This document shows, one piece after another, positions 14,804 to 37,004 of a stretch of 46,405 bases of DNA. The position numbers were made by a program, and so were the translations under genes. The stretch is from Hahella ganghwensis DSM 17046 (GTDB taxonomy: Bacteria; Pseudomonadota; Gammaproteobacteria; Pseudomonadales; Oleiphilaceae). The notes under the pieces were generated by a model that did not search any database, was not told the DNA's origin, and saw nothing but the letters and a program-made list of their open reading frames with translations. Location of the stretch: assembly GCF_000376785.1 (NCBI RefSeq), contig NZ_AQXX01000089.1, positions 1 through 46,405 of the forward strand, given 5' to 3'. The first letter of the stretch is position 1. Each line of letters starts with the position of its first letter.

Positions 14804-15562
14804 TCAGGAAGTGAATTTATATTTTCCTATGTCGTTACCTGCATTCCGTATTTCGTCAATCAGACTATCGCTTCCATCAGCCCTCTGCTCCTTCCATTGA
14901 TCAAAAAACACCAAATCTTCCAAGGGCAAACGCTTGCGCCATCCCGCTTTCTCAAGGTCGGGGGTGGCATTAAAGTGGGAGACTTTGCCAACGCAGAGAT
15001 AAGCAATAGGAACAATGTCCTCAGGAATATTCAGAATCTCGTGCAAAGCCTGTTCTTTGATGATGCTGACCCACCCCACTCCCAAGCCTTCTGCTCTTGC
15101 GGCGAGCCAGAGATTCTGCACGGCGCAGACGGTGCTGTAGAGATCCACGGTTTTGATATGGGTGCGACCCAAGACGACGGGGCCGGATCTGGAACGGTCA
15201 CAGGTGACGCAGATGTTCAGGGGGGCATCCAGAATACCTTCGAGCTTTAATGACCGGTAGTTTTCCTGTTTTTCTTTGGCGAACATCTTCGCCGCTTCCT
15301 CATTGGCTTCGAGAAAGGATTGAAAGATACGCTCTCTGATGGTGTTTGACCGGATAACGATAAAATTCCACGGCTGCATGAAGCCGACGGAGGGCGCATG
15401 ATGAGCAGCTTGTAAAATTCGGGCTACTTTGTCGTCAGGAATGTCGTTTGGTAGGAACTGGCCGCGAACATCCCGTCGGTTGAAAATAGTCTTGTATAAA
15501 CTTTCCCGGTCCCTGTCTGTGAATTCAACGTCCTTTATCGAGGTCCTGGAATGGGGTTTCAC
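14804..15562 (-). CDS. bluB: 5,6-dimethylbenzimidazole synthase
   Basis: BluB is a nitroreductase-fold flavoprotein that cleaves reduced FMN with O2 to make 5,6-dimethylbenzimidazole, the lower ligand of cobalamin. The 252-aa product shows the family's opening IFNRRDVRGQFLPNDIPDDK, then AHHAPSVGFMQPWNFIVI, FAKEKQENYRSLKLEGILDA and the characteristic AAR/GLGVGWVSI region. The start is a GTG at 15562 with AGAGGAA ahead of it, two bases after the cobD stop. It is the last gene of the B12 operon, placing an oxygen-dependent step beside an otherwise oxygen-independent corrin pathway. Confidence 0.95.
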   Translation of the reverse strand: MKPHSRTSIKDVEFTDRDRESLYKTIFNRRDVRGQFLPNDIPDDKVARILQAAHHAPSVGFMQPWNFIVIRSNTIRERIFQSFLEANEEAAKMFAKEKQENYRSLKLEGILDAPLNICVTCDRSRSGPVVLGRTHIKTVDLYSTVCAVQNLWLAARAEGLGVGWVSIIKEQALHEILNIPEDIVPIAYLCVGKVSHFNATPDLEKAGWRKRLPLEDLVFFDQWKEQRADGSDSLIDEIRNAGNDIGKYKFTS

Positions 15563-15563
15563 G

Positions 15564-16739
15564 TTATTTCCTCTTCAAGAAATAGGAGGTTACGGCCTGT
15601 TCAATACGTTTGCAGGAGGCGGTATCTGCCGGATTGACCAATCCGGTTCTAAGGAGGCTGTATTTGCCGTTGACATTGATCACCCGCACCAGAATGCCTC
15701 GCTCCGCCAGGAACGACTGCGCTTCTCGGGCAAGATCTGTCTTGATCAGATAGCTGGAGAACAATCCCTGATGAGTGCTCTGCAGAGGGTTCAGAACCTC
15801 CATCATGCCCCGGAAAAGCGTTTCGGTGTAGGTCGCAGAAGTCTGTATACGATAGCGAGCCTTACGATGCCAGAGATGATTGGCGAAAGCATCGATGGCG
15901 ATGGATTGTGCCGGGCCATTTACATTCCAGACACCGGCAACTTGCTGTACCCGGTTGCGAATGGTCGGGTTACCGAACATAAACCCCAGCCTGATGCCGG
16001 CAAGCCCAAAAAACTTACCGAATGATCTGAGGACCACCATATTGCCCGTAAAGTGATGCGTGAGGACACTTTCGTCTGGGGTCAGATCCATAAAGGCTTC
16101 GTCAACGATCAAATAGCAACCTTCATCCAAACGATCCGCCCACTCCCGGAGTTTTTCCGGCGGAAATCTCATACCTGTCGGATTATTCGGATTGATGACC
16201 AGCAGGTGGCAGCACCTGTTTTTTTGCAGATACCGGTCGATAAAATCGGAGGCTTCTTCTTGGTCGAAGGATGGATAACTGATGATTTCAGCCCCTGACT
16301 TTGACCATTGCAATGCATGTTCCTGGTAGCCAATTCTGGGTACCAGCAGGGGAAAGGATGTCAGACAGCCAGGCAATGACTGAATTGCGGTCTGAGTACC
16401 GGAGATCGGCAGCAACTGAGCGTTTCCGTAATAGCCGGACGCCCTTTCCAGTAACAGAGGCGACAGATAAGGCAAGCGCTGGAATGCAATAGGGTCTGGA
16501 TCTGCGACCGGATAAGGATCGGGATTGATACCGGTTGAAAGATCGATCCAGTAATCCAACGGAATACCGTAATGGCGACTGGCAGAATAGAGGTCACCGC
16601 CGTGGATGACGGAACTCTCATCACAAAGCTTAGATGTTTCATCACGAGCAACGGCACTCTCGCCAGAGTTAAAAGAGCTTTCGCCTATATCGGAACCGGC
16701 ATAAGTCATTGAGGGATAGAGATGGATGTCCTGATTCAT
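15564..16739 (-). CDS. cobD: L-threonine-O-3-phosphate decarboxylase
   Basis: This PLP-dependent class I/II aminotransferase-fold enzyme makes (R)-1-amino-2-propanol phosphate for the nucleotide loop. The product begins MNQDIHLYPSMTYAGSDIGE, a non-conserved extension. The family core then starts at VIHGGDLYSASRHYGIPLDY (the usual HGG) and WIDLSTGINPDPYP. PLP-binding features are INPNNPTG, LIVDEAFMDLTPDE and the Schiff-base Lys in RSFGKFFGLAGIRLG. ATG 16739 is favoured because it makes an ATGA overlap with the cbiB stop; the open frame upstream is inside cbiB. The N-terminal region of about 45 residues before the core is longer than usual. Confidence 0.93.
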   Translation of the reverse strand: MNQDIHLYPSMTYAGSDIGESSFNSGESAVARDETSKLCDESSVIHGGDLYSASRHYGIPLDYWIDLSTGINPDPYPVADPDPIAFQRLPYLSPLLLERASGYYGNAQLLPISGTQTAIQSLPGCLTSFPLLVPRIGYQEHALQWSKSGAEIISYPSFDQEEASDFIDRYLQKNRCCHLLVINPNNPTGMRFPPEKLREWADRLDEGCYLIVDEAFMDLTPDESVLTHHFTGNMVVLRSFGKFFGLAGIRLGFMFGNPTIRNRVQQVAGVWNVNGPAQSIAIDAFANHLWHRKARYRIQTSATYTETLFRGMMEVLNPLQSTHQGLFSSYLIKTDLAREAQSFLAERGILVRVINVNGKYSLLRTGLVNPADTASCKRIEQAVTSYFLKRK

Positions 16740-17674
16740 ATCCAAAGCCCATAACAGAATAATAATCCTCCCCAGAGCAACAGGGAGCGGTTGACCAGCC
16801 CGCAGGCTTGTTTGATGGTGTCTGCATTCGCCGGACTGCCGAACTCTGGCCCTAACGAGGGGCGATCCTGCCACTGGCCATGGTATATTGCCCCGCCTCC
16901 CAGGCTGACATTGAGCGCTCCGGCACCGGAAGCCATCACAGGACCTGCGTTAGGACTTTTCCAGGTATTGGCCTGCAGTCGCCAGCAATGAAAGGCGCAG
17001 AGTGTTTTGCCGCTTACAGCGTAAGTGAAAGCTGTCAGCCGTGCCGGGATCAGGTTGAGCAGATCATCAAATCGTGCGGCGGCCCAGCCAAACTTGATAA
17101 ACCGGGTATTTCTATACCCCCACATGGCGTCCAATGTATTGCTTAAACGATACATCACCACCCCGGGAATCCCGCCGACAATAAACCAGAACAAGGCAGA
17201 AAAAATAGCGTCTGCGCCATTTTCAAGTACCGATTCGGTCGCAGCCACGGCGATGCCCTGCTCATTCAGTCCGTCTGTATCACGACTGACAATCATTGAT
17301 ACAGCGTAACGAGCCTGATCCATATCGCCAATCTTCAGCGGTTCTGACACAGCACGGGCATGACTCAGCAGGCTCTGCCATCCAATGGCCAGATAAAGTA
17401 CGACACCGGCTGACAGTGCATAAGGGTAGTTAACTGAAGATGGTTCGCTATCGAGAGACCACTGTGACTCAAACCACCAGGCCAGAAAAGTGAATGGGGC
17501 TATCGCCAATGCCAGTGCGATCACTCCGGCGATGTAGCCTTCACAACGAGGCTTCAATATCTTCTCAAGCCAATCCGCCAACTTGCCGAAACCGACTAAC
17601 GGGTGCCACCGCCTGGGTTCGGCAAATACGCGATCCAGAATAAGTGCCACCATCACCGACAGGAACAAGGTCAT
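16736..17674 (-). CDS. cbiB: Adenosylcobinamide-phosphate synthase (CbiB)
   Basis: CbiB (called CobD in Pseudomonas nomenclature) attaches the aminopropanol phosphate to adenosylcobyric acid in the inner membrane. The 312-aa product has the family start ALILDRVFAEPRRWHPLVGFG and several membrane segments (for example IAGVIALALAIAPFTFLAWW). Conserved internal motifs are VSRDTDGLNEQGIAVAATES, VLENGADAIFSALFWFI, MWGYRN...FGWAAARFDD and a C-terminal GGGAIYHGQW. It overlaps cobN (ATGA, 17671-17674) and cobD (ATGA), so translational coupling is likely. Its substrate needs cobyric acid synthase (CobQ/CbiP), which is not in the window. Confidence 0.95.
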   Translation of the reverse strand: MTLFLSVMVALILDRVFAEPRRWHPLVGFGKLADWLEKILKPRCEGYIAGVIALALAIAPFTFLAWWFESQWSLDSEPSSVNYPYALSAGVVLYLAIGWQSLLSHARAVSEPLKIGDMDQARYAVSMIVSRDTDGLNEQGIAVAATESVLENGADAIFSALFWFIVGGIPGVVMYRLSNTLDAMWGYRNTRFIKFGWAAARFDDLLNLIPARLTAFTYAVSGKTLCAFHCWRLQANTWKSPNAGPVMASGAGALNVSLGGGAIYHGQWQDRPSLGPEFGSPANADTIKQACGLVNRSLLLWGGLLFCYGLWI

Positions 17675-20600
17675 GGAGTTTCCCGTCCCTCATCAATGTC
17701 CAACAGGAGATTCTGTAGTGCTTTCGCGTGATCTTCCGCGTCTCGCCACATCCCCCGCTGCGTAGCTTCCAGTAGTCGTTCAGCCATCTCTTCCAGTGCT
17801 GATGGACTGTGCGCCTGCAGAAATTCACGATTGTCCTGATCCAGCACCAGAGTATCGGCAACCTGGGCGTACTGGTAGTCGTCAATCAGATCCGTTGTAG
17901 CGTCGTAGGCGAAGAGATAGTCGATGGTCGCCGACATTTCAAACGCCCCCTTGTAGCCGTGCTCCCGCATGGCAGACAACCATTTGGGGTTTAACACCCG
18001 GCTACGAATCACTCGGTTGAGCTCTTCTTTCAGGGTGCGGATTTTGGGCGCCGCCGGGTTGGAGTGATCTCCGTGGTATATCGCTGGCATTGTGCCCCGA
18101 AAAACGTTCACCGCGTTGGACATGCCCCCCTGGAACTGATAGTAATCGTCCGAGTCCAGCACATCGTGTTCACGGTTGTCCTGGTTTTGGACCACCACTT
18201 CGAGTTGGGATAACCGATGCTGAAATTCTTCTCTGACCTGGATACCATCCCCATGGATCTGGCCATAGGCATAGCCACCCCAATTCACGTAGGCTTCAGC
18301 GAGATCGCCTTTATTCTCCCAGCATCGCTCATCGATCAGCCCCTGCAGTCCTGCCCCATAGGCACCGGGTTTACTGCCGAAAACACGAAAACTGGCTTGC
18401 CGGTGCGCATCTTCGGCACTCATTCCCTGCTCTATGAGCACCTGTTGGCGTTCTTGGATATGTTGCAGTATAAAATTTTCATCGCCCGGCTCTTCCAACT
18501 TGGCAATGGCCTGAACCGCTGCGTCGTATAAGCGAATCACATTGGGAAAAGCATCTCTGAAGAAGCCGGAAACGCGCAAAGTCACATCGACTCTTGGCCG
18601 CTTAAGCAACATGGTAGGCACGATTTCAAAGTCAACCACCCGATGAGATCCTTGCGCCCAGATAGGCTTTAGCCCCATCAAGGCGAATGCCTGAGCAATA
18701 TCGTCACCACCGGTCCTCATTGTCGCCGTTCCCCAGACTGACAGACCCAGTTCTTTTGGGTAATCGCCGTGTTCCTGCAAATGGCGTTCAATCAAGGCTT
18801 GAGCAGAACGTTCGCCAATCGCCCAGGCAGTCGGCGAAGGTATGGCGCGGGAATCGACCGAATAGAAATTTCGACCGGTCGGTAGTGTATCCAGTCGCCC
18901 GCGAGTGGGAGCTCCACTGGGACCAGGCGGGACAAATCGGCCGCTCAACCCGTTCATTAAAGAGTCAATTTCCAGCGAAGCGCTCTGGTGCAAGGCAAAT
19001 ACAATTCGTTCTCTGGTGTATTCCAGCAATGCGAAGGTGGCAGGGAACTCGTGCCTGATCTGGCTTGTATCCTCGGAATCAAGTACATGTTTCCGCATCC
19101 ACTGACTCGCAAGCAGCTCCAGGCGCTCACGGGTATCAGACTCGGTACGCCATGGTTGGTCTGATAATTGATCTAATATCGAGGGCTTGGGACCGGTCCA
19201 GATTGTGCTACCGGCCGCGAGAGGATCAAAAATGTCTTCGTTCTGATAAAGTTCCAGGTCAATGGCAATATTGTGCAATATCCCCCGGCTTTCTGGCGTG
19301 TCTCCGCGAGGAAGTCGCAATAAGGCTACGAGCGTATCACAAAGCTTTTCGTCGTCAGGCAACTCCCCAAGAATGTGAAGTCCATGTCGGATCTGGGCTT
19401 CCTTGATGTCACACAAGTAAGTATCGAGCTCATTCAGAAGCGTTTCATCATCGGAAGCGACCATTTCTTCCGTCATTCCCAACTCATGAATCACGCCTGT
19501 TGATCGGACCAGTTCCAGAATGGTTTCACGCAGCCAGTTTTCCCGGCGTTTATCCAGACCGCTGGCCTGATAGAATTCATCGACCAGTCCTTCAAGCTCC
19601 GCTAGCTCACCATAGGTTTCCGCGCGCGTCATCGGTGGCATCAGATGATCGATAATCACTGCCTGGGCACGGCGCTTGGCTTGAGCGCCTTCGCCGGGAT
19701 CATTGACGATAAACGGATAGAAATGCGGCATTGGCCCCAGAGCAATATCCGGCCAGCAACAGGAGGATAGCGCGGTTCCCTTTCCGGGCAGCCACTCCAG
19801 ATTCCCGTGCTTGCCTACATGCACAATCGCATCCACCTGATAGCAAAAACGCAGCCAGAAATAGAACGCCAGATAGCTGTGAGGAGGAATCAGATCAGGG
19901 TCATGGTAATTGGCCGCCAGATCCCGATCGAAACCTCGCGCCGGTTGAATTCCGATAAAGGTCTCCCCTAACCGGATACCCGACAGCATCAACCTGCCCT
20001 GCCGGTATTTTGGATCCTGTTCCGGGCCACCCCATTGGTCGATGACTGCCTGCTGGCAGGATGCGGGCAACTGGGAAAAGTATTTTTGGTAATCCTCCAG
20101 CGCCAGGCTTTGCCAGCAAGGTAGAAAATGCAGCGTGTTGGGATTATTGGTCACGGATGTGAGCAAGGCTTGAATCAGTTCTGTGCCCGTTGCGGGAATC
20201 TCTCCGGCAGAACCTACTGGATAACCCGCATCCTTAAATGCCCGCAGAATATTGACCACCGATGCCGGAGTATCCAGGCCGACTCCATTGCCAATACGAC
20301 CGTCTTTAGTGGGATAGTTAGCCAGTATCAGGGCGATGCGTTTTTCCTCATTGGATTTAGACGCCAACTGACAATAGCGTCTGGCCAACTCACTGACGAA
20401 TGCCGCCCGTTCCTGATGCAGTGCGTAACGGACAACGGACGCCTGACAACGATCGCTATAATAGTTCTCTGCTTTAAAGCTGACGGCCCGCGTGATGATT
20501 CTACCGTCCATTTCCGGCAGTACCACATGCATGGCTATGTCCCGGCTACGCAGCCCTTGGGTATATTGCTCCCAATCTTCTTCTGCTGTGCTCGACAGGA

Positions 20601-21594
20601 TCAATTGCATCACCGGCAGAGACTCGTCAAAGGGCGAATCAAATTCTGTCGGTTGCGAGGAAAGATCCGAACTGGCAACCCGGTTGATGGCAAACCCGGT
20701 GGTGTTCAGGACCAATTTGGCCTGGGTTTCAGCGATCAGTACGTTCAGTTGCTTCAGGGTATCCGCATCTTTTAACGACGCCACTGATACCGGCAAAGGA
20801 TTCAATCCCTGATTTTCAGTTTGCTCGATCAGTTCATCGAACATCTGAGTGTCAGCGCTTTGCAGGTGGCTGCGGTAGAACAGAAGGAGAACAATGGTCC
20901 CCAGGGGCTCGTTATTGTTGAGAAAACTGCCACCGACGACTGTCCTACCACGATCTCGCTGTAGATCCTGCCATCTCTGCTCCCACCAATGTTGCCCTTC
21001 CGCCAGTGAGAAAGAACGTGATGGCTGTCGGCCACTCTTAGGAACGTAGATCAAGCAATTGGGCAATGGCCTTGGTTCAAGCCAGGACACCGGGAGATCG
21101 AAATAGGTTGCGGCTATAAAATTAAATAACTGACGAGCGTTATGAACCCCGCTTTCACGCAGATAACGCCAAACCCTGCAGGATTCGCTGGCAGCAACTG
21201 TTGACGCCTCTGTTAACGCCTCGTCAGGAGCATCGTCGCCGGGGACGACAATCAACCGGCGACAACACGTTTCCCCATTCCCGGACCACTCCCGGAGCCT
21301 TTCGAAGCCATATTCCCAGTATCCCTGCCCGCCAAGAAGAGAAAGAACAATGACCCTCGCCCGGTCCAGCACCTTGTCCTGATATAGGTCGAACGCTGCC
21401 GGCTTCATCAGATGGGTCCAGTTGGCCAGACGTATGGTCGGATAATCGTCTGGCAGATTTTCCGCCGCATGAGCCAGAGCCGACAGGCTGCTGTCAGCAG
21501 CCGACAGAATCACAATATCTGCCGGCGACTGATTCAGATCGATGATACCTTCGTCATCGACAAATCCGCCGGGTCTGGCCGCAAATAGATGCAT
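17671..21594 (-). CDS. cobN: Cobaltochelatase large subunit CobN
   Basis: The 1307-aa product is full length for the CobN/BchH family. Family marks include YPTKDGRIGNGVGLDTPAS, DAIVHVGKHGNLEWLPGKG (the metal-insertion domain), PAMTRAETYGELAELE-like helices and a C-terminal WGGYAYGQIHGDG with TIDYLFAYDATTDLIDDYQY. CobN inserts cobalt late, into hydrogenobyrinic acid a,c-diamide, using an AAA+ partner. Here that partner is likely the ChlID fusion encoded at 33784-35562 rather than CobS/CobT. The start codon overlaps the cobW stop by one base. Its presence together with CbiX is discussed in the findings. Confidence 0.96.
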   Translation of the reverse strand: MHLFAARPGGFVDDEGIIDLNQSPADIVILSAADSSLSALAHAAENLPDDYPTIRLANWTHLMKPAAFDLYQDKVLDRARVIVLSLLGGQGYWEYGFERLREWSGNGETCCRRLIVVPGDDAPDEALTEASTVAASESCRVWRYLRESGVHNARQLFNFIAATYFDLPVSWLEPRPLPNCLIYVPKSGRQPSRSFSLAEGQHWWEQRWQDLQRDRGRTVVGGSFLNNNEPLGTIVLLLFYRSHLQSADTQMFDELIEQTENQGLNPLPVSVASLKDADTLKQLNVLIAETQAKLVLNTTGFAINRVASSDLSSQPTEFDSPFDESLPVMQLILSSTAEEDWEQYTQGLRSRDIAMHVVLPEMDGRIITRAVSFKAENYYSDRCQASVVRYALHQERAAFVSELARRYCQLASKSNEEKRIALILANYPTKDGRIGNGVGLDTPASVVNILRAFKDAGYPVGSAGEIPATGTELIQALLTSVTNNPNTLHFLPCWQSLALEDYQKYFSQLPASCQQAVIDQWGGPEQDPKYRQGRLMLSGIRLGETFIGIQPARGFDRDLAANYHDPDLIPPHSYLAFYFWLRFCYQVDAIVHVGKHGNLEWLPGKGTALSSCCWPDIALGPMPHFYPFIVNDPGEGAQAKRRAQAVIIDHLMPPMTRAETYGELAELEGLVDEFYQASGLDKRRENWLRETILELVRSTGVIHELGMTEEMVASDDETLLNELDTYLCDIKEAQIRHGLHILGELPDDEKLCDTLVALLRLPRGDTPESRGILHNIAIDLELYQNEDIFDPLAAGSTIWTGPKPSILDQLSDQPWRTESDTRERLELLASQWMRKHVLDSEDTSQIRHEFPATFALLEYTRERIVFALHQSASLEIDSLMNGLSGRFVPPGPSGAPTRGRLDTLPTGRNFYSVDSRAIPSPTAWAIGERSAQALIERHLQEHGDYPKELGLSVWGTATMRTGGDDIAQAFALMGLKPIWAQGSHRVVDFEIVPTMLLKRPRVDVTLRVSGFFRDAFPNVIRLYDAAVQAIAKLEEPGDENFILQHIQERQQVLIEQGMSAEDAHRQASFRVFGSKPGAYGAGLQGLIDERCWENKGDLAEAYVNWGGYAYGQIHGDGIQVREEFQHRLSQLEVVVQNQDNREHDVLDSDDYYQFQGGMSNAVNVFRGTMPAIYHGDHSNPAAPKIRTLKEELNRVIRSRVLNPKWLSAMREHGYKGAFEMSATIDYLFAYDATTDLIDDYQYAQVADTLVLDQDNREFLQAHSPSALEEMAERLLEATQRGMWRDAEDHAKALQNLLLDIDEGRETP

Positions 21595-22712
21595 CAGCTG
21601 ACGGTTTCCAGCTCTGCCCGCTTTAATGCATCGGTCAGCCCCGCGGTATCCAGCTCTTTGCCAATTACGACCAAACGGGTGTGGCGGGGCTCTCCCTCAC
21701 GCCACAACCGGTCAAAATGGACGTCGAGACGTTCGCCGACGGCCTGCATCACCTGCCGCATGGGTTTGCCCGGTACCGCGGCAAAGCCCTTGGCCCGATA
21801 AATAGCATGCTCTTTCAACAGATTCTGCAATTGACTCCGCAGTTTGTCTGCATCGACCTCCCCCAGAGTGATCACGCAGGAATCAAAGTGATCGTGAGCG
21901 TGCTCATGGTGTTCGCCGTGTTCGTGGTGGTGGTCATGATGATTATGAACATCATTGATCCGGGATTCGCTTTCCGCCTCGATGCCCAACAGCATCTCCA
22001 GCGGTAATTGATCGTTGATGAAATCACCGTGACTGATGTATACCGTTTTCACCGACGCCGGCACTTTTCTCGACACGATGCCTCTTACCAACTCGCGCTC
22101 ATTTTCACTGAGCAGATCGTTTTTACCCACCAATACCATATCAGCCGCACTCAACTGGTCGTCCAGCAGCTCCTGCAAGGTGGGATCATGGTCCAGGTTT
22201 TCATCAGCCAGCCTTTGCGCCTGAACTTTTTCCTCATCATTGGCGAAGCGACCCGCGGCCACGGCCGGACCGTCGATCAGGGTAATGACCGCATCGACCG
22301 TACAATGCTGCTTAATGTCAGGCCAGTTGAAGGCTTGTACCAAAGGCTTGGGCAGTGCCAGTCCGCTGGTTTCAATCAGGATGTGGTCGATATCCTCCCG
22401 ACGCGCGACCAGTTGCTGCATGACGGGAAGAAACTCTTCCTCCACAGTGCAACAGATACAGCCGTTGGCCAGTTCGTATATCCCATTGCCAGCCCCTGAC
22501 TCATTTGGTCCGGTGGCGCCTGCTCCCTCTTCTTCACAATCCAACGGGCAGCTGCGCAGAAGATCCGCGTCAATATCCAATTCTCCGAATTCATTGACGA
22601 TGACGGCAATTCGTTTACCGGCCGCCTGCTTTAAGATATTGGACAACAGCGTGGTTTTTCCGCTGCCGAGAAATCCAGTCACAATGGTCGCGGGGATTTT
22701 ATTCAGTTGCAT
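21594..22712 (-). CDS. cobW: Cobalamin-pathway GTPase/metallochaperone CobW
   Basis: The 372-aa product belongs to the COG0523 G3E GTPases. A Walker A motif (VTGFLGSGKTTLLSN) starts near residue 12, followed by VNEFGELDID and the metal-binding CxCC motif (ANGCICCTVEEEFLP). GTPase signatures ETSGLALPKPLV and GKNDLL come next. A His-rich linker (DVHNHHDHHHEHGEHHEHAHD, trimmed) precedes the CobW C-terminal domain. It probably delivers cobalt to CobN in the cytosol. The ATG at 22712 is preferred to 22718 because AGGA is 6 nt from it. It lies 74 bases after cobM, the largest gap in this half of the operon. Confidence 0.94.
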   Translation of the reverse strand: MQLNKIPATIVTGFLGSGKTTLLSNILKQAAGKRIAVIVNEFGELDIDADLLRSCPLDCEEEGAGATGPNESGAGNGIYELANGCICCTVEEEFLPVMQQLVARREDIDHILIETSGLALPKPLVQAFNWPDIKQHCTVDAVITLIDGPAVAAGRFANDEEKVQAQRLADENLDHDPTLQELLDDQLSAADMVLVGKNDLLSENERELVRGIVSRKVPASVKTVYISHGDFINDQLPLEMLLGIEAESESRINDVHNHHDHHHEHGEHHEHAHDHFDSCVITLGEVDADKLRSQLQNLLKEHAIYRAKGFAAVPGKPMRQVMQAVGERLDVHFDRLWREGEPRHTRLVVIGKELDTAGLTDALKRAELETVS

Positions 22713-22786
22713 AGTCATTCCTGTCCGATCGAAGTTGTCTTTGGCGGTTGTAGCGTTGTTCGAGGTTCAAGGTTCAGGGTTCATCG

Positions 22787-29037: not shown

Positions 29038-29838
29038 CTACTCTCTATTTGTCACTGCTCTGGAAAATCGACCTGTAGCGCTCAGCGTCTTAAACTGCTC
29101 GAGCACAAAGGATTCCATGGCAGCAATATTGTTAAACTCATCATCAACCGGAGTCAGCTCCGGCCGTTCCAGCATGTATACCGGGATGTTCAGTTCCCGC
29201 GCGGCCTGCAATTTGGCAACCGTGGCATCGCCCCCACTGTTCTTGCTGATGACGGCATCAATGCCATGTTGACGCATCAGGTTCCGTTCATTCGCCACTT
29301 CAAACGGGCCGATGGCTTTGACCCATTCCATATCACCGGGTAAGGGAAACCTGGGCTCTACTGCCGTTCGCAACAACTGTCGCTGTCCCTGCTGCTGGTA
29401 TTCAGCCAGCCTCTCCAGAATGCCCTGATCCGGCTGCCCGGCTGTCAGAAAAAGCGACTTTTTGGTACTAACCGAATCCAACAATTCAAACCAGTCCGAA
29501 AAACGGCTCCAGTTGTCTTCTTTCTGTGGCCGCCAGGCCGGACGCTGAAAGCGCCAGTAAGGTATGCCCGTGAAAGCCGCGCTTTCCCTCGCCGTTTCGC
29601 TCATTTTCCTGGCGTAAGGATGAGTTACATCCAAAATGGCACTGATATTCTGCTCACAAAGGAAACGGTCCAAACCTCCCACCTGGGTATAGCCACCACT
29701 GAACACCTCACAAGAGACGTTAGGGGTTCTGACCAAACCTGCAATGCTGTAAATAAGTTGAACTCCCTGTCTGCTGAGGCTTTCGGCCAGTCGCCTTCCA
29801 TCTGCCGTTCCGCCCAGTAGCAAAAGAGTGCCTTTCAT
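29038..29838 (-). CDS. cobK: Precorrin-6A / cobalt-precorrin-6A reductase (CobK/CbiJ)
   Basis: The 266-aa product begins [20 protein letters not shown], with the NAD(P)H-binding glycine motif. It continues with [44 protein letters not shown] and a C-terminal [37 protein letters not shown], all typical of CobK/CbiJ. It reduces the macrocycle with NAD(P)H before the C5/C15 methylations. It overlaps cbiD by an ATGA and is 10 bases before cbiX. Confidence 0.94.
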
Positions 29839-30992
29839 CCTTGCAACCCCTCAAACGCACTCCCAACAAATCGGCCCTTCCGGTCCACTGCCCAGACTTC
29901 GAGTTCTACATCCAGGGGAACCATACTTCTTGCCTTGGCAAGCGCCTGTCGACAAACCTCATCCGCAAGAGGTATCTCTTTGCTAACACAAAGTTTCAGC
30001 ACTTCTATGGTGGTGTTGGCCTGTAAAACCTGATGAATCAGGTCATTATCAGCGCCCAGGTTTCCAGCCATTTCTGCCAGTTGCTTAAAATCAATCGACG
30101 AGGCTCGGCTGTGCAGGTCCAGATGGCCGTTAGCCAGCTTGGTCATCTTGCCGAAGCCGCCACAGAGACTGACTTTTTTGATCCTGACCCGGCGGAGATA
30201 TTTCAATACCGCACCGGCAAAATCCCCCATCTCGATGAGAGCCATATCCGTCAGGCCGTAAAGGTCTCGTATGGCTGCCTCACTACTGCTGCCAGTGGTG
30301 GCGGCAATATGGTCAATACCGTTGGCATGGGCCACATCGATCCCCTGATGAATCGAGGCAATATAGGCAGAGCAAGAAAACGGCCTGACTATGCCAGTCG
30401 TTCCCAATATGGACAGTCCTCCTACGATTCCCAGACGTGGGTTCATGGTTTTCAGGGCCAGTTCATGCCCGTTTTCCACACCGACAGCCACTTCAAAACC
30501 GCCCAGGTAGCCAAACTGCTCAGCTGCCTGTTCAAGATGATCCCGGATCATTTGACGGGGAACCGGATTAATAGACGGCTCCCCTACCCCCAGACTCAGC
30601 CCGTCCCGGGTGACAGTACCAACGCCTTCGGCGGCTTTAAACATCACTCCGGGTTGCGACCGCAGACGTAAACGAACGAAGACCCTGGCGCCGTGAGTCA
30701 CGTCCGGATCGTCGCCGGCATTCTTAATCGTTGACGCCATCACTTGCTGTTCGTCAACTCGCTGAAGGTCACTGATTTGCAACCTAACGAGTTTCCCCCG
30801 AGGTAACTTCACGGAGACTTCTTGTGGTAAATCCCGCTGTGGTAAATCCCGCTCTTTCAGATCAGAACAGGCATGAGCATTATTGCCATTCAGCAGACGC
30901 TGGGCGGCGGCAACGCAACAAGCCGTCGCACAAGTGCCAGTGGTCAAACCGGTCCTCAGCTTTTGAGGCTGCTCACTACTTTCCGGCCACAT
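29835..30992 (-). CDS. cbiD: Cobalt-precorrin-5B C1-methyltransferase CbiD
   Basis: CbiD methylates C1 in the oxygen-independent pathway and can replace CobF in some aerobic organisms. The product (385 aa) shows the family start [20 protein letters not shown], then [75 protein letters not shown] and [23 protein letters not shown] 30992 is preferred (AGG 8 nt ahead) over the GTG at 31001. A 15-bp perfect tandem duplication (30823-30852) encodes a repeated RDLPQ in a variable loop after the first motif. Confidence 0.95.
30823..30852. repeat. 15-bp perfect tandem duplication inside cbiD
   Basis: The 15-base unit TGTGGTAAATCCCGC occurs at 30823-30837 and again at 30838-30852. It is in frame and duplicates five residues in a surface-type loop, so the protein stays intact. 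It looks like a recent slippage event. Confidence 0.85.
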
Positions 30993-31017
30993 CGGGGACA
31001 CCTGACTGCAACATCAA

Positions 31018-31668
31018 TCAAACAACCTGACTCAGCCAATAGCTGCCAAGCACCACGGAGACAGAAGCAATCAGATATTGGTTCCAGCGAAACCAGCGCT
31101 CGCTGAAACGCTGGAGTTTAAGCTGGACCGTCCCAAGCCCAAGACCGAAGCACAACATGGACAGCAGAACGCCAAGGGAAAAGACCAGGATATAAGCCAC
31201 GGCAATCACTAACTGGCCCTGTGTAATCACGGGTACCAATGCCAATGCCGAGGCACTGCCCGCAAGACCATGCAGCATACCCACCATTAATGGCGCCCTT
31301 GGCTTCCCGGTCTGCCCGCGTGTTTTTAGTAATCGGTTTTTTTCCAATTCAGAGCCTTCACCCGACCGCGAGCGATAGCGCCAGAAACACATTATCCCGA
31401 TAGCGATGAGCAGAATTCCCACACTTGCTTCCGCTGAAATCTGTAACGCCTCAGGTAAACGAAACCCCAGTCCGAACAACAGCAGACCGCAGGCCAATAA
31501 CACACCGCCATGCCCAAGAGCCCAGCTGGCGCAATACAGCAGCGTGCGGCGAATACCGGTTTTTTCACTGCTGAGTGCAGAAACGGCCATAACATGATCC
31601 GGGTCCAGTGCATGGACAAATCCCAAAGAAAATCCTGCACCGATCAGTGCGATAGAACTAGACAACAC
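31018..31668 (-). CDS. NiCoT/HoxN-like nickel-cobalt transporter
   Basis: The 216-aa membrane protein carries the nickel/cobalt transporter signature LGFVHALDPDHVMAVSALSS (HAxDxDH motif) in its first helices and about six transmembrane segments. A second conserved pair GMLHGLAGSASALAL lies in the middle. It is shorter than classical NiCoT proteins and resembles the compact UreH/HupE-like branch. Given its place in the operon, cobalt is the likely substrate. The start is a GTG at 31668 with AGGAGAT upstream, overlapping the cobB stop by 11 bases. Confidence 0.85.
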   Translation of the reverse strand: MLSSSIALIGAGFSLGFVHALDPDHVMAVSALSSEKTGIRRTLLYCASWALGHGGVLLACGLLLFGLGFRLPEALQISAEASVGILLIAIGIMCFWRYRSRSGEGSELEKNRLLKTRGQTGKPRAPLMVGMLHGLAGSASALALVPVITQGQLVIAVAYILVFSLGVLLSMLCFGLGLGTVQLKLQRFSERWFRWNQYLIASVSVVLGSYWLSQVV

Positions 31669-33139
31669 AACTTATCTCCTGATCCCCTGAAATGGTCGCT
31701 TTTCGGTAAAACAGGGCGGCCACCGCCTCAGGGTTGGATGGAAAGAAAAGGTGGAGATAGGTCGCCGTAAGGCCCTGTAATCGAAAGATGGGCTCTCCAG
31801 GGGCAGAATGACGCTGCCGGCGACCATACCCGATAGGCTCCGGGGTATCAAAACTACGTGAACGGTGATGAGCATGGGCCTGGACTTCACCTTCCGGGAG
31901 CACAGCGGTCTGCATTCCCTGGCACCCTCTTTTTCCACGCATCATGCCTTTACCGGGAATCAGTCCCAGCATGTTAAAGGTGTTTTCATCCAGGTCCGTC
32001 AGAGTTTCCAGGCAATACAGGAAGCCACCACATTCCGCCAGAATAGGACGCTGCTGAATGAAGTGTTGCCTGATCGCCTCTTTCATAGGCTCATTGGCAG
32101 AAAGCACTTCGGCATAAAGTTCCGGATAACCCCCGGGCAACCAGATTGCATCAACCGATCCTGGCTCGCTGTCATGCAGTGGGGAAAAGAATTCAAATTG
32201 GGCGCCAAGCTCATTGAGCAGGCGCAGATTTGCAGCATAGATAAAACTGAACGCCTCATCTTTGGCAATCCCCACACGCAGGCCCTGTAGCGGTCTACCT
32301 AAACCTCCTTCCCTTGCTGCAACCGGTGCTTGAAAAAGCACACCCTTTGTTTCGTTTGTCTTACCTGGTCGACTGTTCTCACTTGACCCATTTTTCTCAT
32401 CGAGCCCTATTTTTTTAATTAGGCCTGTATCCAATGAGGTTTTAAGCGCAAACAACTCTGAAGCCTCAATCCCCCCGGCAGCCAGCGCCTTGGCTCCGGC
32501 TTCAAATCGTTCCTCCAGCTCTTGCCTGACTTCACTGGCCTGTACCAACCCGAGGTGTCTTTCCGGTAACGCCAGCTCCGGATTTCTTGGCATTGTGGCA
32601 ATAAGAGGAAGCGATTCCGGTAAGTTATCCCGAATCAATTGAGCATGGCGCTCTGATCCGCAGTGATTGGCGATCACCCCGACCAGGTTAATGTCCTGGC
32701 GAAACCCGGCCAAACCCGCTGCAATAGCAGCCGCTGTCTGGGCCATCCCCTTTACATCCATCACCAGTATGACCGGAATGCCGAAACAAGCCGCTAAATC
32801 GGCACTGGAAGGTTCTCCATCAAAAATCCCCATAGCACCTTCGACAAGAATCAGGTCCGCGTCTTGTGCTGCCTGGTGTAAGGCCTGACGACAGTAGTCC
32901 TCACCGGCCATCCAAAGATCAAGTTGTTCTACCGGGTGACCTGATGCCTGCTCCAGTATTTGGGGGTCCAGATAATCCGGGCCGGTCTTGAAGACTCTCA
33001 CCCTGATCCCCTGATTGCGCAGATAACGGGCAAGCGCGGCAGTGACCGTCGTTTTACCCTGGCCAGAGGCTGGAGCCGCCAGAAAGTATGCTGGACAACA
33101 AACTGATGTCTCAACCTGATCCGGGATTGCAACCGACAT
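31658..33139 (-). CDS. cobB: Cobyrinic / hydrogenobyrinic acid a,c-diamide synthase
   Basis: The 493-aa product has an ATP-dependent N-terminal domain (P-loop LAAPASGQGKTTVTAALARY, VFKTGPDYLDP, LVEGAMGIFDG) and a C-terminal class I glutamine amidotransferase-like domain. The latter has IWLPGGYPELYAEVL and the nucleophile Cys in RPILAECGGFLYCLETL. It amidates the a and c acetates with glutamine. A low-complexity linker of about 40 residues joins the domains. The CobB (hydrogenobyrinate) and CbiA (cobyrinate) versions cannot be separated by eye. Its ATG overlaps the cobO stop by one base. Confidence 0.95.
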   Translation of the reverse strand: MSVAIPDQVETSVCCPAYFLAAPASGQGKTTVTAALARYLRNQGIRVRVFKTGPDYLDPQILEQASGHPVEQLDLWMAGEDYCRQALHQAAQDADLILVEGAMGIFDGEPSSADLAACFGIPVILVMDVKGMAQTAAAIAAGLAGFRQDINLVGVIANHCGSERHAQLIRDNLPESLPLIATMPRNPELALPERHLGLVQASEVRQELEERFEAGAKALAAGGIEASELFALKTSLDTGLIKKIGLDEKNGSSENSRPGKTNETKGVLFQAPVAAREGGLGRPLQGLRVGIAKDEAFSFIYAANLRLLNELGAQFEFFSPLHDSEPGSVDAIWLPGGYPELYAEVLSANEPMKEAIRQHFIQQRPILAECGGFLYCLETLTDLDENTFNMLGLIPGKGMMRGKRGCQGMQTAVLPEGEVQAHAHHRSRSFDTPEPIGYGRRQRHSAPGEPIFRLQGLTATYLHLFFPSNPEAVAALFYRKATISGDQEISCVV

Positions 33140-33732
33140 TAGAATTCGATTCCTGCCTGGGCTTTGACACCGAGCCGGAAGGCGTGACGCTCCTCCTGCA
33201 CGACACTGATAGTGTCTCCGATGTCCAGTAGCGGCCGCGCCATAGTGCGGCCGGTAATGATAACATTCTGCATGGGCGGCCTTTGTTTAAGCGCCTCCAC
33301 CACCGGCTCTACATCCAGGTAGCCATATTTGAACATGTAACTCATTTCATCGAAGACCAGCATGTCGTAGCTTTCGTCGGCGAGTAGCTTTTTGGCAAGC
33401 TCCCAGGCCTTTTGGGCGGCTGCGATATCCTGTTCCCGATCCTGGGTTTCCCAGGTAAATCCGTGCCCCATGACGTGCCAGTCGACTTGCGGGTGGTCCT
33501 TAAAGAACAGATGTTCACCGGTTTCAGTTCGCCCTTTGATAAATTGGATCACCGCACAGCGCTTGCCGTGGCCGACTGACCTGAGCATAGTGCCAAAGGC
33601 AGAACTGCTCTTACCCTTGCCATTTCCTTTCAGAAGAATCAGGATGCCGCGCTCTTCTGACGCCTGGGCAATCTTGGCATCCATCACGGCTTTTTTGGCC
33701 GCCATTTTCTGTCGATGCTTGTCTTCGGTCAT
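33139..33732 (-). CDS. cobO: Corrinoid adenosyltransferase CobO/BtuR (CobA type)
   Basis: The 197-aa product has the P-loop GILILLKGNGKGKSSSAFGT and the family segments CAVIQFIKGRTETGEHLFF, MLVFDEMSYMFKYGYLD and NVIITGRTMARPLLDIGDTI. It transfers the adenosyl group from ATP to cob(I)yrinate a,c-diamide or salvaged corrinoids. The start ATG at 33732 has AGGA upstream. The gene follows the chelatase subunit by 51 bases. Confidence 0.96.
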   Translation of the reverse strand: MTEDKHRQKMAAKKAVMDAKIAQASEERGILILLKGNGKGKSSSAFGTMLRSVGHGKRCAVIQFIKGRTETGEHLFFKDHPQVDWHVMGHGFTWETQDREQDIAAAQKAWELAKKLLADESYDMLVFDEMSYMFKYGYLDVEPVVEALKQRPPMQNVIITGRTMARPLLDIGDTISVVQEERHAFRLGVKAQAGIEF

Positions 33733-33783
33733 TAATCCTGAGACTCCTCTGTTTGATCCCGCGATAAAATGAATGATTGTCTA

Positions 33784-35562
33784 TCAGGCCGGTCCAGTAC
33801 CTGCTGCGTTATTGATGCCGGTCAAAGTCAGATAAACGGCACCAAGTTGCTCGGCAAGGGCTGCCGCTCTTCCCCGTTTCACCCTTGACTGTTCAATATC
33901 AATCACCGTGCATTCCCCAGGCAAAGCAATATCTGTAATCGTTTGTCGGGTAAGACCATCGGTCAGTAGATAAGTGAATAATTGAATATCGGGTTCCTGC
34001 TTAGAAAGTTTCTTCAGATAAGCATGGGCTTTCAGTAATACGTCCCGCACCGGCGTTCCTCCACCGGCCTCCAGACTGTTCATCAGATGACGTATATCCT
34101 TCGGTGATCTCATTTGTCTGGCGAGCAGGTTCTGTACCTGCTCATTACCAAACCCGATAATCTGCAACTGGTGTCGTTCCAGATATGCCTGTTCAGCGAT
34201 GCGGGAAACAATTCCCTTGGCTTTACCAAAGTGACTGTTTCTCAAAGTGGACGCCGAAGCATCCAGTAACACAAGGTGCAATACCGGACACCCACTCCGG
34301 CCCTTTTTGAAGCTGATTTTTTCCGGCGGCCAGTTCGCTCCGTTTGTCAGCAGGGTCCGAAACCAGTCGGGAAGACTCTTTTTCTGTCTTTTGGCATTGC
34401 CCGTTCCGGCTCTGGTACCGGCGAGCCGTCGCGCATTGGGTGACTTGATCGATAAATGAGACCTGTTATATCCAGTCGACTGGCTTGATGTCGGTGCAGA
34501 TGTGCTGAGAAAATCGCCCGCTTTTTCATTATCCATCTCCTGAGACTGGGGCGGCATCGCTCCCCACTGTCCAGCCTCAGCTTCTACCTGCTCAGTGTCG
34601 GAATCCGCTGTATTCGGTTCTGCAGCAATGGACTCATTCTGGTTAATTGAGGTAGGCGGTCTGGAGAATGGTGGACGCGGGTTTTCAGGTGGCCTGGGAG
34701 GTTGCCGGCTTCTTCTGCGATGCGCCAGTACTAGCGACTCAACCGCATCGATGTCCTCAAGGGATACAAAATCATTCTGGCGCCAGGCGGCATTCGCCAC
34801 GGCTGCCCGATACCACACGATATCCGCCCGCAGACCATCGACACAGGCAGCCTCACAACGGCGGGCTATCTCGACTCTCAGTTCATCGCTACAATGAACT
34901 TTTCCCAGGTGTTCTCTGGCGCGAAGGATATTTTCCCTGAGGGTCTTCTGCTCACGATGATATGACTCGCAGAAATCGGCGGGATTCTGGTCGAAGGCTT
35001 CACGTCTACGGACGATTTCGATTCGCTCTTCAAGGTTGTATTGACTGTCCAGTTCAACCATCAAACCGAAACGGTCACTGAGTTGTGGGCGCAACTCTCC
35101 TTCATCCGGATTCATCGTACCCACCAGCAAAAAATCGGATGCATGGGAATGACTGATGCCGTCCCGTTCGACCCGATTGACCCCACTGGCCGCAACATCC
35201 AATAAAAGATCGACCAACGGGTCCGCCAGCAGATTAACCTCATCCACATACAGAACCCCCTTATGGGCCTTGGCCAGTATACCGGGGTTGAACATAACTT
35301 CCCGTTCGTGGAGCACTTGCTGCAGATTCATGGTACCGGTGACCATTTCTTCGGTTGCCCCGAGAGGCAGCGTGACGAATGCCGGCTGATCAGGCAAAAC
35401 ATCTGCCAGCCCCCGGGCCAGGGTCGATTTGGCACACCCCCGTGGACCGCTGATAAGAACACCACCAATTCTGGGATTAACGGCGGCCAGGATCAGTGCT
35501 CGTTTAAAGGGCGCTTGTCCGGCCACTGCCGAAAACGGGTAATCAGGCACTTGCGGCGACAT
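33784..35562 (-). CDS. ChlI/ChlD-type fused AAA+ / vWA chelatase subunit
   Basis: The 592-aa product has an N-terminal AAA+ domain like magnesium chelatase BchI. It has Walker A GPRGCAKSTLARGL, HKGVLYVDEVNLLADPLVD (Walker B) and LVGTMNPDEGELRPQLSDRF. A Pro- and acid-rich linker (about residues 290-390) leads to a von Willebrand A domain with the MIDAS motif LLDASASTLRNSHF, then GGGTPVRDVL and YLLTDGLT. Such fusions act as the ATPase partner of CobN in organisms lacking CobS and CobT, which fits the operon. It overlaps cbtA by 20 bases. It contains both the I and D parts in one chain. Confidence 0.92.
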   Translation of the reverse strand: MSPQVPDYPFSAVAGQAPFKRALILAAVNPRIGGVLISGPRGCAKSTLARGLADVLPDQPAFVTLPLGATEEMVTGTMNLQQVLHEREVMFNPGILAKAHKGVLYVDEVNLLADPLVDLLLDVAASGVNRVERDGISHSHASDFLLVGTMNPDEGELRPQLSDRFGLMVELDSQYNLEERIEIVRRREAFDQNPADFCESYHREQKTLRENILRAREHLGKVHCSDELRVEIARRCEAACVDGLRADIVWYRAAVANAAWRQNDFVSLEDIDAVESLVLAHRRRSRQPPRPPENPRPPFSRPPTSINQNESIAAEPNTADSDTEQVEAEAGQWGAMPPQSQEMDNEKAGDFLSTSAPTSSQSTGYNRSHLSIKSPNARRLAGTRAGTGNAKRQKKSLPDWFRTLLTNGANWPPEKISFKKGRSGCPVLHLVLLDASASTLRNSHFGKAKGIVSRIAEQAYLERHQLQIIGFGNEQVQNLLARQMRSPKDIRHLMNSLEAGGGTPVRDVLLKAHAYLKKLSKQEPDIQLFTYLLTDGLTRQTITDIALPGECTVIDIEQSRVKRGRAAALAEQLGAVYLTLTGINNAAGTGPA

Positions 35563-36418
35563 TGTTATTGGAGTCTTTCAATACCCGGCGATTCAGAACC
35601 CAGGCACTCAACAATCCCAATGCTACCCAGAAAAGCAGATTGGCCAAGCTACTGGCGATAATGAAGTCGTGATGCAGACCACTCAGCGCCTCCACGGCCC
35701 CGGCATCAGGATGAGAAAACTCCGGTCCATCGTTATGTGGTGCACCGATGATAAACGGCACTACAATCGCAACCAGTCCCAGTGCTTTCCATTTGATGGG
35801 GGTAAATGCGAGAACCGCCAATCCGACGCCTGTCGCTATAACGGTCAATATCCACCATTCCTGACGAAATGACAGAGGCGCAGCTTCAATGCCAGGGATC
35901 TCCGGCGGTAAACCGATACCGGGGGCAGCGAAAAAAGCCAGGAATCCGGCCACTCCCCAATACAGTCCTTTCACTGGGTTGATCCTGGTGATTCCCAAGC
36001 TTTGGAACTGTGCCATCAGGGCCAGTAATACCGCGGCGAATCCGATGCTGGCCATGATATTGGAGACCAGTGTATAAGAGGTCCGCTCAGCGCCATCTTC
36101 CGGAGCCCAGGCATCTTCGCCATGGCTGTGCCCATGGGAGCTGGAGTGATGATCGTTCTCATGAGAGTGGCTTTCAGCACCATGATGATTCTCAGTTGAC
36201 ACCTGGTGACTTTGACTGGAATGAACTGAATCGCCAGTTGCTTCCTGAGAGTGGGCTGCCAATTGCGATGAATCTGCCACAGGTGCGCCCTCTGGTAATT
36301 CATATTCCTCCGCAGCGAAAATAATGGGGGCAACTCCCACCATCTGGGCCGCTGACAGAAACAATCCCGCCAGCAAACCCACAAAAAGGGCGTTTAAAAT
36401 AATTCTCCGAAATATCAT
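35543..36418 (-). CDS. cbtA: Cobalt transporter CbtA
   Basis: The product (291 aa) begins MIFRRIILNALFVGLLAGLF, the usual CbtA opening, with about five predicted transmembrane helices. A His-rich extracytoplasmic loop (residues 50-95, with NHHGAESHSHENDHHSSSHG) lies between helices 1 and 2 and probably captures metal. Conserved parts include KGLYWGVAGFLAFFAAPGIG-LPPEIPG. CbtA/CbtB pairs are predicted cobalt uptake systems found under B12 riboswitches. ATG 36418 is chosen by homology; the frame is open to 36502. Confidence 0.93.
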   Translation of the reverse strand: MIFRRIILNALFVGLLAGLFLSAAQMVGVAPIIFAAEEYELPEGAPVADSSQLAAHSQEATGDSVHSSQSHQVSTENHHGAESHSHENDHHSSSHGHSHGEDAWAPEDGAERTSYTLVSNIMASIGFAAVLLALMAQFQSLGITRINPVKGLYWGVAGFLAFFAAPGIGLPPEIPGIEAAPLSFRQEWWILTVIATGVGLAVLAFTPIKWKALGLVAIVVPFIIGAPHNDGPEFSHPDAGAVEALSGLHHDFIIASSLANLLFWVALGLLSAWVLNRRVLKDSNNNVAASA

Positions 36419-36588
36419 TGTTGTCTGTTTCCCAATGCTCTTTATCGTGTTCCTCCGACATTGCCCTGGCACAGGACGATAAGACCTGTTGCCGCATAAC
36501 ACTTCAGTTACGGTGGCAATACCGGCTTTAGGCAGAATGACGCCCCACAGGCACCTGGCCTGAAGTAATCAAGCTGTAATCTGGAGTA

Positions 36589-36774
36589 TCAGTGGCAGGG
36601 AAATGCCAATGAGTGACGGGTATCATGGGCAGCGTTATGGGCCGCATCCATTGGCAGAAAGCCAACGGCATACAGAATCACTGCACCAAAGATCAAAGCA
36701 CTGGAAGTTTGTAGAAATGTGGAGGATACAGGCCGGGAGACGGACTGCGCCCTGGAGACTGATTGTGTCGACAT
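36589..36774 (-). CDS. cbtB: Cobalt transporter subunit CbtB
   Basis: The 61-aa product has one transmembrane helix (SALIFGAVILYAVGFLPMDA). It ends in a compact His motif, HNAAHDTRHSLAFPCH, the CbtB signature thought to bind cobalt. The ATG at 36774 has AGAGGT 7 nt ahead; an upstream frame start at 36792 would add six residues. It is the first gene after the riboswitch. A 170-base gap separates it from cbtA, unusually wide for this operon. Confidence 0.93.
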   Translation of the reverse strand: MSTQSVSRAQSVSRPVSSTFLQTSSALIFGAVILYAVGFLPMDAAHNAAHDTRHSLAFPCH

Positions 36775-36823
36775 ACTGATTACCTCTGGCACCCACCGTA
36801 CCTGCTAAGTAGAGATGAACAAT

Positions 36824-37004
36824 ACAGGCCGGTCTTCGGGCTCAAAGAGGGTTACAGCCTTCGTTTACACCTTCCCGGCCATCTCAGTCCTGAGAGCCAG
36901 TGGCATTCGTAAACTACTCTTTTTTACCGATGCGGGGGCAGCGATGGAATCCGCCAGATGGCTTACCATACTTCCCGATTATCCCATGACATCAGGGCAC
37001 CTGT
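36824..37004 (-). promoter_or_regulatory. Cobalamin (adenosylcobalamin) riboswitch
   Basis: On the minus strand the order of conserved blocks is canonical. There is AGGTGCC near 36997-37003, then AATCGGGAAGTATGGT, GCTGCCCCCGCATCGGTAA, the B12-box block GCCACTG at 36898-36904, GGCCGGGAAGGTG, and GAGCCCGAAGACCGGCC near 36828-36846. ACAGG at the 5' end can pair with CCTGT at the 3' end to close the outer stem. It ends about 50 bases before the cbtB start and likely represses the operon when adenosylcobalamin is plentiful, probably at translation, since no terminator hairpin is obvious. Confidence 0.95.

Follow-up and report, generated by a model that had tools for sequence, protein, structure and literature searches.

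The cobalamin (vitamin B12) operon of Hahella ganghwensis DSM 17046 combines a cobalt-early set of ring-building genes with those for CobN, ChlID and CobW, which have the make-up of a late cobaltochelatase. We analyzed a stretch of contig NZ_AQXX01000089.1 from position 1 to 46,405 (46,405 nucleotides, referred to as the window), whose minus strand carries a cobalamin riboswitch and 20 tightly packed genes between 37018 and 14804. Based on the observed gene content, gene absences, hallmark residues, co-occurrence across genomes and trees, we favor a reading in which the ring is made by the early route and CobN-ChlID-CobW is a working late chelatase surplus to that route, likely a second point of cobalt entry for salvage or re-metallation; we put its probability at about 0.5.

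Evidence for the cobalt-early route

The sequence of CbiX makes it most likely that the ring is built by the cobalt-early route, with CobJ predicted to carry out ring contraction. The protein has two lobes, with His15 and His81 in the N lobe along with GHGSR and GGHAKND motifs, followed by MNCQLC at position 264 and a run of ten histidines at 304. These are hallmarks of the large cobalt-type enzyme (CbiX-L): that of Bacillus megaterium has His14, His79, an MXCXXC motif and a histidine-rich tail, whereas the sirohaem CbiX of Paracoccus has its catalytic histidine pair in the C lobe (PMC7689651). The operon also encodes CbiD and a two-domain CbiG.

Profile searches of the whole H. ganghwensis genome (144 contigs, listed completeness 100%) revealed no CobG, CobZ or CobF, which an earlier note on this DNA had listed as absent from the operon. 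With a cut-off of 234.8 bits, the CobG profile matched only two genomic frames, one of 553 amino acids (152.6 bits) and one of 855 (33.4 bits), which we took for a sulfite and a nitrite reductase; as both are far below the cut-off, a hidden CobG was rejected. CobZ had no match in the genome at E 1e-10, and the top genomic match for CobF was the operon's own CobI (54.7 bits versus a cut-off of 195.8). A complete CysG is encoded (624 bits, cut-off 400), so sirohaem production is covered, and a second, small CbiX (143-148 amino acids) lies elsewhere in the genome. Given the full CysG and the N-lobe position of the histidine pair, we rejected a sirohaem role for the operon's CbiX, though sirohydrochlorin ferrochelatases are its nearest relatives among solved structures (103 bits). 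Since chelatase structure does not reveal the metal, according to a review (PMC7689651), the assignment of cobalt to CbiX, which we regard as probable, rests on the motifs, the operon and CysG. The earlier note had proposed that a cobG or cobZ gene elsewhere, together with a CbiX serving sirohaem or another chelation, would turn the operon into a standard late pathway; what we found was a CbiX with CbiX-L hallmarks in a genome with a complete CysG.

Among the genes expected of the late route, a CobN with an AAA/integrin-type partner and CobW are present, the ChlID partner scoring below its family cut-off. CbiD substitutes for CobF in some late pathways. These results support the earlier proposal that ring contraction should follow the early route, for which CobN would be redundant. 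The oxygen requirement of BluB is compatible with this route, which can do without oxygen; B. megaterium runs it in air, and our results gave no sign that it excludes oxygen.

Gene content of the operon

Profile searches confirmed CbiX, CbiG, CbiD and CbiET beside CobN, CobW, ChlID and BluB in a single operon, all on the minus strand. Gene-to-gene spacing ranges from -139 to +68 bases from CbtA to BluB and is 86 bases between CbtB and CbtA; with short gaps throughout, "one uninterrupted operon" is a fair description. Parts beyond those listed earlier are CbtB, CbtA and a NicO-like protein. While CobK, CobH, CbiG, ChlID and the decarboxylase score below NCBIfam cut-offs, their kind is unmistakable. 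The features, in order of transcription, are:

36810..37018, minus strand: cobalamin riboswitch, operon leader (Rfam RF00174, 91.5 bits)
36589..36774, minus strand: CbtB-like 61-amino-acid frame (histidine-rich end, place before CbtA)
35543..36502, minus strand: CbtA cobalt transporter subunit (TIGR02458, 212 bits, above 182.9; PF09490)
33784..35562, minus strand: ChlID, fused AAA and integrin-I-like CobN partner (TIGR02442, 449 bits, below the cut-off of 779)
33139..33732, minus strand: BtuR/CobO corrinoid adenosyltransferase (TIGR00708, 201 bits, above 167.8)
31658..33139, minus strand: CobB/CbiA a,c-diamide synthase (NF002204, 409 bits, above 254)
31018..31668, minus strand: NicO/UreH-like membrane protein, possible cobalt/nickel transporter (PF13386 above cut-off, PF03824 below; HALDPDH)
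29835..31001, minus strand: CbiD C1-methyltransferase (TIGR00312, 380 bits, above 200)
29038..29838, minus strand: CobK/CbiJ reductase (NF005968, 198.6 bits, and TIGR00715, 122.1 bits, both below cut-off)
28026..29027, minus strand: CbiX-L sirohydrochlorin chelatase, two lobes (PF01903 in two stretches; motifs)
27338..27979, minus strand: CobH/CbiC methylmutase (NF006136, 244 bits, below 276; PF02570, 227.8 bits, above cut-off)
25956..27431, minus strand: CbiET methyltransferase/decarboxylase (TIGR02467 and TIGR02469 above cut-off)
25201..25953, minus strand: CobI/CbiL C20-methyltransferase (TIGR01467, 194 bits, above 163)
24368..25204, minus strand: CbiG hydrolase, N and C domains (PF11760, PF01890)
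23572..24375, minus strand: CobJ/CbiH C17-methyltransferase, ring contraction (TIGR01466, 284 bits, above 246)
22787..23605, minus strand: CobM/CbiF C11-methyltransferase (TIGR01465, 328 bits, above 260)
21594..22718, minus strand: CobW cobalt chaperone GTPase with P-loop, CICC and histidine-rich stretch (TIGR02475, 448 bits, above 332)
17671..21594, minus strand: CobN late cobaltochelatase large subunit, HVGKHG at residue 592 (TIGR02257, 1571 bits, above 822)
16736..17674, minus strand: CbiB/CobD adenosylcobinamide-phosphate synthase (TIGR00380, 199 bits, above 165.9)
15564..16739, minus strand: CobC/CobD-type threonine-phosphate decarboxylase (TIGR01140, 255 bits, below 290.6)
14804..15562, minus strand: BluB 5,6-dimethylbenzimidazole synthase (TIGR02476, 266 bits, above 150)

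From its histidine-rich end and its position ahead of CbtA, we take the 61-amino-acid frame to belong to the CbtB family. ChlID carries a GPRGCAKS P-loop and a DASAS MIDAS-like motif; its Pfam scan returned AAA matches only, with none to VWA at E 0.001. For the decarboxylase, the ATG at 16739 is the preferred start over the GTG at 16874. The NicO-like protein, located between CbiD and CobB, has relatives in 7 early-type genomes and is a possible cobalt transporter beside CbtAB. Among the matches listed, the closest named locus is that of Hahella sp. CCB-MM4 (94% identity for CbiX, 89% for CobM and 77% for CobN), which starts at CbiD and has the identical gene order through to BluB.

Co-occurrence of CobN with either ring type

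To the extent that the earlier note presented this mixture as unusual, our genome samples and the literature (PMC6461909, PMC8305020) show otherwise. In a sample of 254 genomes from the order (completeness at least 90%), with CobH/CbiC as the marker, 58 are ring-makers: 36 with CbiX-L, defined as a two-lobed CbiX in a frame of at least 300 amino acids, 22 with CobG, and none with both. CobN above the cut-off was found in 54 of the 254, comprising 32 of the 36 CbiX-L genomes, 20 of the 22 CobG genomes and 2 of the 196 without CobH (G217 and G235). Thus the early route with CobN accounts for the majority of ring-makers (32 of 58), and CobN accompanies CbiX-L as often as it does CobG (Fisher p = 1, a descriptive value only as the genomes are related). 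In this order, the chelatase is therefore no guide for dividing B12 makers into aerobic and anaerobic.

These counts leave out a weak CbiX-like frame in G275 (33 and 31 bits) and the CobN-family matches below cut-off in G174, G283, G433 and G436. The CobG count is 24 matches minus two NirA, with 8 of the 22 scoring below the cut-off yet counted as CobG; the only one of the 22 scanned against other models (G020) had CobG as its best, at 211 bits, below the cut-off. Two apparent cases of CbiX-L with CobG (G130 and G158) were rejected upon inspection, because the "CobG" is NirA (NF007126 708 and 674 bits versus 311 and 317 for CobG). These NirA-type nitrite reductases (L053:8325-10169 and L055:2664-4424) pass the TIGR02435 CobG cut-off at 311-317 bits, so that this cut-off alone misleads and forms an annotation trap for B12 pathway calls. 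CbiG_N as a marker of the early route was also rejected, being present in 11 CobG genomes in frames of 550-664 amino acids; all 11 sampled genomes with such a frame carry both CobG and CobN, in agreement with the earlier statement that pseudomonads, which have CobN, also carry CobG.

In a class-level sample of 299 genomes, some in common with the order sample, CobH was found in 40 genomes and CobN above the cut-off in 15, with both in 14 and CobN only in one (G391). One member, G291 (contig C1), matches both CobN and CobH and is listed at 0.4 Mb and 96% completeness, so that, should the listing be correct, it would be a B12 maker with a strongly reduced genome. In a control set of 14 genomes, CobN, CbiG_N and CbiX all have matches in Synechococcus elongatus, Methanocaldococcus, Haloferax and Methanosarcina; three of the 14 match CobG at E 1e-50, one above the cut-off, with Synechococcus and Haloferax among them, perhaps via nitrite reductases.

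Conservation and phylogeny of CobN

CobN looks like a working class I late cobaltochelatase surplus to the main route, judging from its conservation. It is full length without stop codons in the 32 CbiX-L genomes that carry it, and HxGKHG is retained in 54 of 54 CobN rows; the counterpart of its histidine in HmuS is essential (PMC12583661). The 20 CobG-type rows share 335 invariant columns. In the 32 early-type rows, which take in the window's own CobN and those of G040 and G112 (the last encoded away from the ring operon of its genome), 252 of these columns are identical without exception, and 309 are identical in 90% or more of the rows. No fixed difference separates the two types in these 32 and 20 rows.

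We also compared the operon's proteins with their relatives by ring type, using 32 early genomes and 23 CobG genomes (G014 added) and counting genes inside the fetched stretches only (6-30 per gene for early, 1-22 for CobG, for genes represented in both sets). Most ring enzymes split strongly, with median identities to early and CobG relatives of 74% and 41% for CobJ, 55% and 34% for CobI, 75% and 56% for CobM, 65% and 48% for CobH, 48% and 33% for CbiET, and 43% and 35% for CobK. By comparison, CobB (60% and 58%), BtuR (71% and 68%) and ChlID (49% and 47%) hardly differ, and CobN is at 63% and 53%. The division into modules is not clean, as shown by CbiD (59% and 55%) and CobW (72% and 56%).

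Trees were built with FastTree only. The operon's CobJ groups with those of CobG-free, CbiX-L genomes in a tree that, like that of CobM, carries a long-branch warning, and the changes of ring type needed are 1 for CobJ, 2 for CobM, 3 for CobW and 4 for CobN. With a midpoint root, used for drawing only, 8 CobG-type CobNs fall inside a 40-row side of the CobN tree, the rest of which is early-type except G235. The CobG-type genomes in this tree carry a single CobN apiece and none of them a counted CbiX-L, so that their CobNs should act on a metal-free corrinoid; given the interleaving of the types, early-type CobNs should have, or recently have had, the same activity.

CobN in genomes without ring synthesis

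Two genomes of different families have CobN in an importer-linked operon and lack CobH. In G217 (97% complete, 90 contigs), which had no genome-wide match for CobG, CbiG_N, CbiX or CobH, the order is cobalamin riboswitch, BtuR, periplasmic binding protein, FecCD-family permease, ATPase, DUF1636, CobW, CobN, ChlI and ChlD; G391 has the same order, with the riboswitch between CbiB and BtuR. These loci (L058:3467-14220 and L131:3900-14149), with their BtuCD/FecCD-type importers, are candidate operons for salvage of metal-free corrinoids. The riboswitch, BtuR and CobN suggest that the importer's cargo is corrinoids, and import, adenosylation and cobalt insertion in the absence of ring synthesis suggest that CobN can serve such salvage. 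We found no report of a riboswitch-led BtuR-importer-CobN operon in ring-less genomes in the open-access literature, most subscription papers being outside the search. The DUF1636 protein between the importer ATPase and CobW (L058:7077-7502; PF07845, 108 bits) is of separate note for its cobalt setting.

Among the 80 best named loci, taken by nearness of their CobN to that of G217 among the matches listed (the counts are not frequencies), 12 combine two or all three of the importer genes upstream with a stretch free of ring genes; they include G391 and loci of Thauera butanivorans, Pseudomonas insulae and Comamonas avium. Another 29 have CbiG and lack CobG (24 with CbiX, 8 with BluB), 4 have CobG, 11 have other ring genes only, and 24 have neither a ring gene nor such an importer. 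On separate contigs, G112 carries an early-type ring operon and the array riboswitch-BtuR-CobW-CobN-ChlI-ChlD. Ring synthesis has apparently been lost recently in G235, where intact CobW and CobN follow what is left of CobM (L059:6816-7079, 117 residues aligned).

Proposed pathway and role of CobN

In the pathway we favor, precorrin-2 from CysG would be oxidized to sirohydrochlorin, into which CbiX-L would insert cobalt; CobI, CobJ, CbiG, CobM, CbiD, CobK, CbiET and CobH would complete the ring, whose contraction by CobJ would require no CobG, before amidation by CobB and adenosylation by BtuR. CobN, ChlID and CobW would form an ATP-driven late cobaltochelatase dispensable for this main route. 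Its most likely job would be to load metal-free corrinoids, whether imported, stripped of their cobalt or never supplied with it, during B12 shortage and at a stage such as the a,c-diamide, in keeping with riboswitch control. We infer the flux, the activity and substrate of CobN, and the role in salvage or re-metallation from the genes.

The rest of the genome contains three further riboswitches. One belongs to an operon with a BtuB-like receptor, CobQ, CobU, CobT, CobS and a histidine-phosphatase gene, and another precedes a periplasmic binding protein. In the third case (L049:4118-7048, with L016), the gene behind the riboswitch encodes the large subunit of a class I-type ribonucleotide reductase (1690 bits), which suggests a B12-independent enzyme switched by B12.

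A more general and more tentative proposal is that CobN-ChlID-CobW is a salvage or repair cobaltochelatase, which would load metal-free corrinoids, imported or made by cobalt loss, before adenosylation, serving as a dedicated riboswitch operon in some ring-less bacteria and as a second cobalt entry in early-route bacteria. If so, the retention of a late chelatase by early-route organisms, a loose end already noted in print, would become testable in culturable relatives such as Marinomonas, Neptuniibacter or Oceanospirillum, and metal-free corrinoids would be a possible shared nutrient.

Several observations weigh against a surplus chelatase with a salvage role. CobN is missing from 4 of the 36 CbiX-L genomes, two of which (G106 and G255) have more distant enzymes with CbiX at about 30% identity, and from 26 of the 40 CobH-carrying genomes of the class sample, taken irrespective of route type, at the cut-off used. 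ChlID scores below its family cut-off, and CobW, the presumed partner of CobN, differs by ring type in its median identity. The window's CobN lies inside the ring operon and not beside an importer; in the CobN tree, which does not include the G391 protein, that of G217 falls on the opposite main side. Ring-less status was checked genome-wide only for G217 and G391, the latter by CobH alone, and apart from G391 the importer-CobN loci among the best 80 were judged ring-less from the stretch alone. Family scores, all below cut-off and divided among B12, iron-chelate and haem models, do not settle the importer's cargo: the top model is BtuC for the G217 permease (225.6 bits, cut-off 334), FecD (229.6) ahead of BtuC (221.8) for that of G391, and a haem ATPase (246.9, cut-off 261) ahead of a corrinoid ATPase (221.3, cut-off 537) for the G217 ATPase. 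Finally, G235 counts as weak evidence for such a role, since it has a ring-maker as near sister and may simply not have lost its CobN yet.

Alternative explanations

Of the alternatives, the one that survives best, which we nonetheless consider unlikely, is that CobN, ChlID, CobW, CobB and BtuR travel with either ring type through descent or transfer and that CobN is unnecessary in its host. The small differences by type for CobB, BtuR and ChlID compared to CobJ and CobI, the different ring types within one genus (G112 and G198 versus G179) and the four CbiX-L genomes without CobN fit this explanation. An intact CobN in 32 CbiX-L genomes with 252 of 335 columns kept is hard to reconcile with a lack of selection, and CobN and CobW differ somewhat by type whereas the ring enzyme CbiD hardly does.

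A role of CobN and CobW in rescuing the early route under cobalt shortage or after insertion of a wrong metal, by reloading late intermediates, is quite unlikely. Class II chelatases are largely unselective for metal while CobNST is cobalt-specific (PMC7689651), and CobW keeps its CICC motif, as such a role would favor; a wrong metal, however, must first come off, and the papers examined contained no report of metal exchange by CobN.

Two de novo routes, with some flux passing metal-free, contracted by an oxygenase of another kind and receiving cobalt at CobN, are very unlikely. The presence of CobB, CobW, CobN and ChlID fits such a scheme, as does BluB, from which available oxygen can be deduced, yet the genome lacks CobG and CobZ, the operon genes include no candidate oxygenase, and CbiX-L and CobG exclude each other over the 58 ring-makers. 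Of the two options the earlier note left for CobN, "another job" appears better supported than a second de novo cobalt route.

Highly improbable is a standard late pathway in which CbiX serves sirohaem and an unrecognized enzyme replaces CobG. For CobI, the precorrin-2 models (176 and 160 bits) outscore those for cobalt-factor II (at most 118), all below cut-off, and the solved chains nearest CbiX are ferrochelatases; the complete CysG, the N-lobe histidine pair and the mutual exclusion of CbiX-L and CobG in the order sample point the other way. Solved relatives add little: the three for CobI are two precorrin-2 methyltransferases and one CbiL, and the two for CobJ score 185 (2zvb) and 171 bits (3nut).

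The most improbable alternative, that this CobN removes metal in the manner of its relative HmuS, a demonstrated haem de-chelatase (PMC12583661), to harvest cobalt or iron, was rejected, since CobN chains score highest among solved structures (1190 and 850 bits versus 370 for HmuS), TIGR02257 scores 1571 bits, and the operon supplies an ATPase partner and CobW, whereas dependence on NADH is reported for the HmuS reaction (PMC12583661).

Neighboring features of the window

Just past the riboswitch, on the plus strand at 38232-39047, is a HupE/UreJ_2 protein that is a possible further nickel/cobalt transporter. On the other side, about 9 kb of the window (4636-13163) contain five frames with matches to solute-binding proteins of family 3 (PF00497, one below the gathering score) as well as one trypsin-like and one PPC-domain frame.

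Comparison with known systems

Coexistence of cobNST with cbiX or cbiK is already in print (PMC6461909). The CbiX-L early pathway of B. megaterium is alike in its CbiX-L hallmarks, CbiG, CbiD, CbiET and lack of CobG (PMC7689651), but the Hahella operon adds CobN, ChlID and CobW under a shared riboswitch. Haloferax volcanii combines the early route with a late-type CobN and a fused ChlID, and a salvage role has been speculated for this combination in haloarchaea (PMC8305020); the Hahella system differs in being bacterial, in having CobW, BluB and CbiX-L, and in placing CobN within the ring operon. Archaeal "CobN" is often apart from cob genes with unclear function, and HmuS illustrates that CobN kin can hold other jobs (PMC12583661). 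HmuS and the Hahella protein share the chelatase superfamily and a conserved histidine motif, whereas the latter is much closer to CobN, has an ATPase partner and is not in a haem operon.

The pseudomonad late pathway has CobG, CbiD, CobN, ChlI/ChlD and CobW. It has CobN, CobW, CbiD and others in common with the Hahella operon, whose CobN is 51-54% identical to those of the 11 CbiG-fusion-type rows; in contrast, the Hahella operon lacks CobG, carries CbiX-L and a free-standing CbiG, and has a CobJ of a different clade.

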